From an uncultured Pelagibacteraceae bacterium (GTDB taxonomy: Bacteria; Pseudomonadota; Alphaproteobacteria; Pelagibacterales; Pelagibacteraceae): 55,131 nucleotides of DNA. Shown piece after piece: positions 12,081-13,266 of this stretch (position 1 is the stretch's first letter; every line of letters begins with the position of its first letter). The notes beneath the pieces were generated by a model. The model was not told the origin of the DNA. It saw only the letters and a list, made by a program, of their open reading frames with translations, and searched no databases. The stretch spans positions 1-55,131 of the forward strand of contig CACGMC010000005.1 of the NCBI GenBank assembly GCA_902574035.1. Direction: 5' to 3'. The position numbers and the translations under genes are program-made.

Positions 12081-12157
<77 letters not shown>

Positions 12158-12162
12158 ATAGT

Positions 12163-12366
12163 CTAAATTTTCTTGAGGTTAATAGCTTGGAGCTTTTCTT
12201 TATCCTCTTTTATATCAAATTTCAAAATTTGATTTTCCTTCAAGACACGCAACTTAGAGCTCTCTAAAGCTGAGACGTGTAAAAAAATATCTCTTTCTTT
12301 TTCATCCTCTCTAATAAATCCGTATCCTTTTTTTGCGCTGAACCATTTTACTTTTCCTTGCGGCAT
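12163..12366 (-). CDS. csp: cold-shock domain RNA chaperone (CspA family)
   Basis: A 67-residue single cold-shock domain. GKVKWFSAKKGYGFI holds RNP1 (residues 13-18) and IFLHVS (27-32) is RNP2; both contribute aromatic residues that stack on single-stranded RNA or DNA. Such proteins melt mRNA structure and act as transcription antiterminators. The gene is 19 bases downstream of rpsU, with an AGGGAG ribosome site before the ATG, and five bases upstream of initiator tRNA, so three translation-related products share one transcript. The C-terminal half is more diverged than in E. coli CspA (LKFDIKEDKEKLQA), but the fold is clear. Confidence 0.92.
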   Translation of the reverse strand: MPQGKVKWFSAKKGYGFIREDEKERDIFLHVSALESSKLRVLKENQILKFDIKEDKEKLQAINLKKI

Positions 12367-12385: not shown

Positions 12386-12580
12386 TTAATATCTACTTCT
12401 TAATTTTTGTTGTTTTTTTATTCTTTTTAAATTTTCAGTTCTAATTCTTTTTTTCTTTTCAGATGGTTTTTCATAAGTGCTTTTCATTTTCATCACTTTG
12501 AAGAAACCCTCTTTTTGCAATTTTCTTTTTAAAACTCTTATTGCTTGCTCAACGTTATTATCTTTGACTTCTATTTTAAT
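12386..12580 (-). CDS. rpsU: 30S ribosomal protein S21 (bS21), apparent ATT start
   Basis: The frame reads (start)-KIEVKDNNVEQAIRVLKRK, then EGFFKVMKMKSTYEKPSEKKK, 64 residues in all, matching bS21 from its first residue. The codon aligned with the family's first methionine is ATT at 12578-12580. An in-frame TAA lies two codons upstream and the next ATG is at codon 30, inside the conserved core, so no ordinary start is available. A perfect AGGAGG stands six bases before the ATT, an ideal distance. S21 binds the 3' end of 16S rRNA and assists initiation. The gene lies between a DUF1013 regulator and a cold-shock gene on the same strand. Confidence 0.9.
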   Translation of the reverse strand: MKIEVKDNNVEQAIRVLKRKLQKEGFFKVMKMKSTYEKPSEKKKRIRTENLKRIKKQQKLRSRY

Positions 12581-12586
12581 AAATTA

Positions 12587-12592
12587 CCTCCT
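12587..12592 (-). promoter_or_regulatory. perfect Shine-Dalgarno site that decides the rpsU start
   Basis: AGGAGG on the minus strand, six bases from the ATT start codon of rpsU. Most genes in this window have weak or no recognisable Shine-Dalgarno site, so a full six-base match here probably compensates for the rare start codon. It immediately follows the leader hairpin at 12604-12620. Confidence 0.75.
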
Positions 12593-12603
12593 GTTTTGAT
12601 TGG

Positions 12604-12620
12604 TAGTTAACATTTAACTA
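12604..12620 (-). promoter_or_regulatory. inverted repeat in the rpsU leader
   Basis: A 7-bp perfect inverted repeat (12604-12610 with 12614-12620) around a three-base centre lies in the 86-base gap between the DUF1013 gene and rpsU, eleven bases upstream of the rpsU Shine-Dalgarno site. It could be an RNA hairpin controlling rpsU translation or an operator. All but two of its pairs are A-T, so the structure may be marginal. No convincing promoter was seen in this gap. Confidence 0.3.
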
Positions 12621-12666
12621 AAGAATTGTCTATATTATTACTTATGAATTTTAAGGATTTTAATAC

Positions 12667-13266
12667 TTAATCTATTTGGTCTTGTGTGTTTTCTTTTTTT
12701 TGCTTTTTTTCCTCTCTCAATAATCTTTTTTTCTCTCTTTCAACTCTTCTTTTTGCTTTGTCCCATGCCTTTTGGAAAGTCTCTTGAGTGCATAAAGCTA
12801 AAATGACTGGGTCTCTAGGTTTTAGGTTAGAAAAATTCCAATAACTTCTTTTTCTAATTAAAGAAACTGTCCCTTTAGTACTTCCTACTAATTTAGAAAT
12901 TTGACCATCAGTTAATTCAGCAGCGTTTTTACATAACCAAAGTATGGCGTCCGGTCTATCCTGTCTTTTTGATAAAGGTGTATATTTCGGTTTCTTTCTC
13001 TCTTTGATTTGTATGTTACTATCTTTTTTAATTAAGTTTAGATTTCTTTCAGGGTTTTTTGAACATTCATCTATTTCGTTACGTGATAGTTGACCAGCTA
13101 AAATTGGATTATAAGCTTTAATACCTTTTGCAACATCACCATCCGCTATACCTTTAACCTCAAGTTCATGTAAATTACAAAACTTTGCTATTTGTCTAAA
13201 AGTTAAATTCGTATTTTCTACCAGCCATACAGCAGTAGCTTTTGGCATAAATGGATATTCTTGCAT
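12667..13266 (-). CDS. DUF1013 family DNA-binding regulator (TrcR-like)
   Basis: A 199-residue protein restricted, as far as I know, to alphaproteobacteria (DUF1013; called cell cycle regulator TrcR in some annotations). The N-terminal PFMPKATAVWLVENTNLTFRQIAKFCNLHELEV and the central RPDAILWLCKNAAELTDGQISKLVGST both look like helix-turn-helix units, and KRSYWNFSNLKPRDPVILALC is highly typical of the family. The last ~30 residues are a run of lysine and glutamate. It begins two bases after the rpmE stop, so it is co-transcribed with ribosomal protein L31, an association I recall from other alphaproteobacteria. Its targets are not evident from the sequence. Confidence 0.8.
   Translation of the reverse strand: MQEYPFMPKATAVWLVENTNLTFRQIAKFCNLHELEVKGIADGDVAKGIKAYNPILAGQLSRNEIDECSKNPERNLNLIKKDSNIQIKERKKPKYTPLSKRQDRPDAILWLCKNAAELTDGQISKLVGSTKGTVSLIRKRSYWNFSNLKPRDPVILALCTQETFQKAWDKAKRRVEREKKRLLREEKKQKKENTQDQID

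Follow-up and report, generated by a model that had tools for sequence, protein, structure and literature searches.

How a gene for a ribosomal protein could come to start with ATT, and whether it truly does so, is the question raised by rpsU in an uncultured Pelagibacteraceae bacterium, which we analysed within a window of 55,131 nucleotides (the whole stretch of DNA considered here, on contig CACGMC010000005.1). Read from ATT, the gene occupies 12386..12580 of the minus strand (stop codon 12388-12386) and encodes 64 residues of bS21, which match PF01165 at 57.9 bits (cut-off 27; E 8.5e-16); this is the single match in the source assembly (1.04 Mb, 92% complete), so rpsU is single-copy there. 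On the minus strand, a Shine-Dalgarno (SD) sequence AGGAGG (12587..12592) is followed by TAA (12584..12586), TTT, the ATT (12578..12580) and then AAA ATA GAA GTC, the spacer between SD and ATT being 6 nt. The TAA, in frame and two codons 5' of ATT as the initial annotation had it, rules out an upstream start in the window, no ATG, GTG or TTG standing in frame between it and ATT. The claim that no ATG lies near downstream was also correct: the first in-frame ATG, GTG or TTG past ATT is a TTG 20 codons into rpsU, and calling restricted to these three codons yields a longest frame of 44 residues inside the gene. Retention of the ATT across many other assemblies rules out a sequencing error. The start codon of rpsU in the window is very probably AUU. 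The gene located 5' of rpsU (12667-13266, minus strand) belongs to the TrcR transcriptional cell cycle regulator family (PF06242, E 5.4e-56).

The initial annotation had called for a comparison with other SAR11 genomes for a conserved ATT or ATA, and this comparison supports it. PF01165 matched 134 of 169 genomes in a genus search and 252 of 297 in a family search, and part of these were fetched, giving 186 loci, 180 of them distinct over 200 bases around the start. We counted 178, leaving out L069, a divergent copy whose genome shows 8% contamination, and the frame-shifted L074, and keeping L296, a family-like sequence titled as a Rhodospirillaceae MAG. Codon 1 is ATT in 165 of these loci, ATC in three, ATA in two, ACG in one and ATG in seven, i.e. 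it differs from ATG, GTG and TTG in 171/178. A strong SD (AGGAGG, GGAGG, AGGAG or, in three loci, GGGGG) stands 3-12 nt before the start in all 171 non-ATG loci and its core in none of the seven ATG loci, one of which (L329) has a GGA remnant. The same pairing extends to the sister family: its 40 distinct loci have ATA (39) or ATC (1) as codon 1, followed by GTN GAA, all behind a strong SD (AGGAGG in 39, GGGGG in one), the locus counts of both families being phylogenetically non-independent. Across the two families, codon 1 drifts among AUU, AUA and AUC (hereafter AUH) while staying non-canonical. This conservation, this drift and the lack of a strong SD wherever ATG is used strongly support, as far as comparative sequence can, that the ATT start of rpsU is more than an accident.

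Five of the ATG loci come from genus g4 and two are records named Pelagibacteraceae or Pelagibacter that cluster with them. A protein tree of 1,373 columns from the upstream genes, used instead of an earlier tree from 0.76-kb pieces that was confused by variable flanks, places the seven loci in two clades (supports 0.55 to 1.00) and the ACG locus as sister to one of them. The switch to ATG may have occurred in two events, or in one accompanied by recombination. These seven Pelagibacter-type loci lack the arrangement of weak start and strong SD, which is thus dispensable. The ACG-start genome, also Pelagibacter-type (L208 / L460), has an intact rpsU SD. Three near-complete genomes (94-99%), G179 and G197 of genus g12 and G126 of genus g1, gave no PF01165 match, and their bS21 may be missing or unassembled.

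Translation could instead begin at another in-frame codon, namely a TTG overlapping the SD, the ATA at codon 3 or the TTG at codon 21. Some in-frame ATG, GTG or TTG lies upstream in 95 of the 178 family loci, mostly the SD-overlapping TTG of one genus, in which many loci read TTG GAG GTA GTT ATT; an in-frame ATG also stands well 5' of the SD in 3 of the 40 sister-family loci. However, the window itself has its stop two codons upstream, and in some loci, of this genus or of named records close to it, the SD-overlapping TTG is replaced by TAG (L197, L327), CTG (L161, L308), ACG (L162) or AAG (L333), which together rule out the upstream start. A start at codon 3 is ruled out by the ATG alleles, which fall precisely on codon 1. 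Codons 2-19 vary mainly at the third position (mean entropy 0.84 bits, vs 0.28 at position 1 and 0.03 at position 2), so the N-terminus is translated and conserved as protein, which also argues against an internal start. Taken as a whole, a start elsewhere than codon 1 is highly improbable. Among 177 loci compared for their isoleucine codons, codon 1 is ATT in 164, although at the remaining isoleucine positions ATA (373) is used more often than ATT (344) and ATC (41).

The initial annotation had described the AGGAGG as exceptional in this genome. As a bare word it is not, since the window holds 15 matches for 11.8 expected; as an SD placed before genes it is. We compared the window (52 other genes) with two stretches of 200 kb each, one from the Pelagibacter-type genome G171 (172 genes) and one from the sister-family genome G363 (165 genes). 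With gene starts predicted by rule rather than known, a strong SD by the rule used for rpsU precedes 2/52, 11/172 and 10/165 genes, respectively, or 3, 14 and 11 when all candidate starts within the first 50 codons are admitted. GGAGG serves as SD in 0/52, 4/172 and 1/165 genes and AGGAG in 1/52, 7/172 and 8/165; over the window plus 41 rpsU loci, which repeat one neighbourhood, GGAGG precedes 4 of 717 genes. The rpsU gene therefore carries an extended SD in an SD-poor genome. AGGAG nevertheless exceeds its internal controls (7 vs 0 in G171, 8 vs 0 in G363), so that SD recognition probably works in SAR11.

A blind scan of the window and of these 400 kb looked for ATT, ATA, ATC or CTG behind an SD, opening a frame of at least 55 codons with no canonical start upstream. 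It returned eight frames: one in the window (rpsU), six in G363 (rpsU, infC and four more) and one in G171. Of these, Pfam recognised only the two rpsU frames and the G363 gene for IF3; the remaining five gave no match at E 0.01. The frame from G171 (L483, 145 residues) was rejected: an AGGAG of its own precedes a TTG/ATG close by, and it is among the frames with no Pfam match. The infC gene, the classical example of an AUU-type start, was read by eye in 18 Pelagibacteraceae loci, where it begins with GTG in 13, probably with ATT in three and with ATG in two; the classical IF3 loop is thus not itself kept there. The 13 GTG starts, that of the source genome included (L139), lie at or near a stop codon, and the three probable ATT starts (L142, L143 and L152) belong to genera g5 and g12. 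All three sister-family loci read (L138, L145, L148) have ATA. Thus rpsU has retained an AUH start in lineages where infC has not.

The region upstream of rpsU looks like a promoter. A -35-like TAGACA (12627..12632, minus strand; coordinates from the window sequence) is kept in relatives, and an extended -10-like element, TG-T-TAACTA (12604..12612, minus strand), overlaps a hairpin to which the initial annotation had attributed possible leader control. The motif TGNTA is found at -27 to -40 in 184/184 loci (not de-duplicated), vs about 40 expected from shuffles, and in 177 of 178 loci the spacing between TAGACA/TGGACA (170 loci) or TAGACT/TGGACT (7) and the -10-like hexamer is exactly 17 bp. 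From these positions we infer that the rpsU transcript would start near 12597, with a leader of about 17 nt. The hairpin at 12604-12620 is a 7-bp palindrome of -3 kcal/mol, a value equalled by 14 of 200 shuffles, and conservation was not found for it, a stem of at least 7 bp occurring in 11 of 178 loci. Since the promoter-like element spans 12604-12620, the hairpin is promoter-like DNA, lying 5' of the putative transcript start. Predicted folds of the rpsU start region were no better than those of shuffles. Control by a leader hairpin was accordingly rejected.

Downstream of rpsU, on the same strand, lie a cold-shock protein gene, csp (12163..12366; PF00313, E 9.6e-22), and, 5 nt past its stop, a tRNA-Met(CAT) at 12081..12157, of which no other close copy occurs in the assembly. 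We take this tRNA to be the initiator because its first base is a C opposite A, a hallmark of initiator tRNAs. Of 37 Pelagibacteraceae loci scanned, 32 (two of them ATG loci) carry it on the same strand downstream of rpsU, vs none of seven from the sister family; at L065, a Pelagibacter-type locus, it begins 6 nt past the rpsU stop. A single copy with at least 95% identity is present in each of 12 genomes, and in nine of them it follows rpsU by no more than about 450 bases; five additional hits are 74-77% identical. rpsU, with or without csp, and the initiator tRNA are probably co-transcribed. A dependence of the AUH start on the initiator tRNA was considered and rejected, as the linkage does not follow the start codon.

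Non-canonical rpsU starts recur beyond these two families, in five to seven other alphaproteobacterial families. A class search matched 147 of 153 genomes; the 89 other alphaproteobacterial loci that we retrieved and read start with GTG (45), ATG (23) or TTG (13), or offer AUH only (8, from seven families), i.e. ATT, ATA or ATC behind an SD of at least GGAG with no canonical codon near. In two of these eight (L228, L269) a TTG lies in frame 11-15 codons upstream, leaving five families without any alternative. For L131 and L133, the sole alternative to AUH is a GTG overlapping the SD. An AUH start was found in none of 27 further loci of the phylum (ATG 18, GTG 7, TTG 2). Among viral bS21 genes, whatever the host, 78 of 80 loci were readable, with ATG in 46, TTG in 30, GTG in one and none of these in one (L413); for instance, the Pelagibacter phages HTVC008M and Mosig have ATG and TTG, respectively. 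A group of viral genes (e.g. L399, L400, L403, L406-L410) has AGGAGG followed by TTG, echoing the host SD with a weak canonical start.

The closest known parallel is the autoregulation of infC through its AUU, AUC or AUA start. As in infC, an AUH-kind start is kept over long distances with an SD in front, the product is part of the initiation machinery, and the sister family has ATA on both genes; unlike in infC, the product is bS21 and not IF3, so any loop would be indirect. According to the accessible parts of the corresponding reports, translation is also limited by a conserved non-canonical start behind a strong or extended SD in Streptomyces sigR, which has a GTC start (PMC5472188), and in Staphylococcus aureus ccpN (AUA) and cvfC1 (AUU) (PMC13009471). 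For Escherichia coli pcnB, the likeness considered is an AUU start that limits translation. None of sigR, ccpN, cvfC1 and pcnB encodes a ribosomal protein. The same reports indicate that non-canonical starts are repressed by IF3 (PMC5472188) and that, with extended SDs, they give about 10% of the expression of an AUG reporter in poor medium (PMC13009471).

A weak start combined with an unusually strong SD suggests that rpsU translation is deliberately kept low and tuned to the condition of the initiation machinery. The explanation that fits best, and towards which we lean slightly, is an infC-like control gated at initiation. Comparing sequences establishes the position of the start, its conservation, its pairing with the SD, the ATG loci that lack one, the promoter-like element and the order of the genes, whereas IF3 sensitivity and the feedback are parts that we infer. 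The start codon, which is AUU in the window and AUA or AUC in relatives, would be kept weak by selection, and the extended SD would make it usable, in a lineage otherwise seldom using extended SDs. That the start varies among codons discriminated by IF3, and becomes ATG only without a strong SD, fits a selected weak, SD-dependent start. By analogy with infC, IF3 would keep most 30S subunits from accepting fMet-tRNA paired with AUU, and bS21 synthesis would stay low until IF3 becomes short relative to 30S subunits; the trigger might alternatively be a build-up of 30S subunits with altered initiation, e.g. lacking bS21. Either way, the supply of bS21 would be coupled to the demand of the 30S pool.

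The same arrangement could act as a mere throttle, weak start and strong SD setting a constant low translation with no feedback, for example because the transcript also bears the initiator tRNA and must be abundant. The clustering of rpsU, csp and the sole close copy of this tRNA on one strand speaks for such a throttle, as do the ATG loci without a strong SD, as if two routes gave a similar rate; but five AUH loci from two genera and all seven sister-family loci scanned have no such tRNA nearby, whereas both ATG loci scanned do, and we regard this explanation as rather unlikely. We give similarly little credence to a feedback resembling that of Flavobacterium johnsoniae and its relatives, in which 30S subunits lacking bS21 favour extended SDs, so that the SD would be the sensor and AUU would deepen the dependence on it. 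The accessible part of the Flavobacterium study describes bS21 feedback through an extended SD (PMC9976891), and the likeness to SAR11 is in the gene, in its extended SD and in the few strong SDs of the genome, as in Flavobacteriales; on the SAR11 side the start is AUU, AUA or AUC. In control of the Flavobacterium type, bS21 together with bS18 and bS6 sequesters the 16S 3' tail, and ribosomes lacking bS21 are relieved of this; such sequestration by bS21 has been described for Bacteroidia and not for SAR11. In general, the loss of bS21 disturbs initiation, according to the portion available of PMC9723584, and the enrichment of SD motifs in SAR11 suggests that the anti-SD is probably accessible to other mRNAs. 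A search for the 16S gene gave no RF00177 match in G000 and no 3'-end pattern in 12 genomes, but the stretches concerned may be absent from the assemblies, so this is not readable as a loss.

Beyond infC-like gating, we tentatively consider a broader possibility, on balance doubtful: SAR11 and several other alphaproteobacterial lineages may share a bS21 fidelity circuit, in which the 30S subunits that are short of IF3 or without bS21 accept AUH behind an extended SD and thereby sense a shortage of bS21. Under such a circuit, the rpsU transcript of most Pelagibacteraceae would be the source of the sole initiator tRNA as well, which would link two initiation components, and phages with their own bS21 would escape the gate, 77 of 78 viral loci offering ATG, GTG or TTG.

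To our knowledge, AUU-type starts are documented in just a handful of bacterial genes. Among the matches listed in a search of open-licence literature, covering titles and the openings of abstracts, we found no description of an AUH-start rpsU in SAR11. Gene finders restricted to ATG, GTG and TTG would shorten or overlook rpsU in SAR11. A ribosomal protein keeping an AUU-type start through two very abundant marine families would carry infC-type control over to the ribosome itself, and SAR11 rpsU offers a testable case of bS21 control beyond Bacteroidota.
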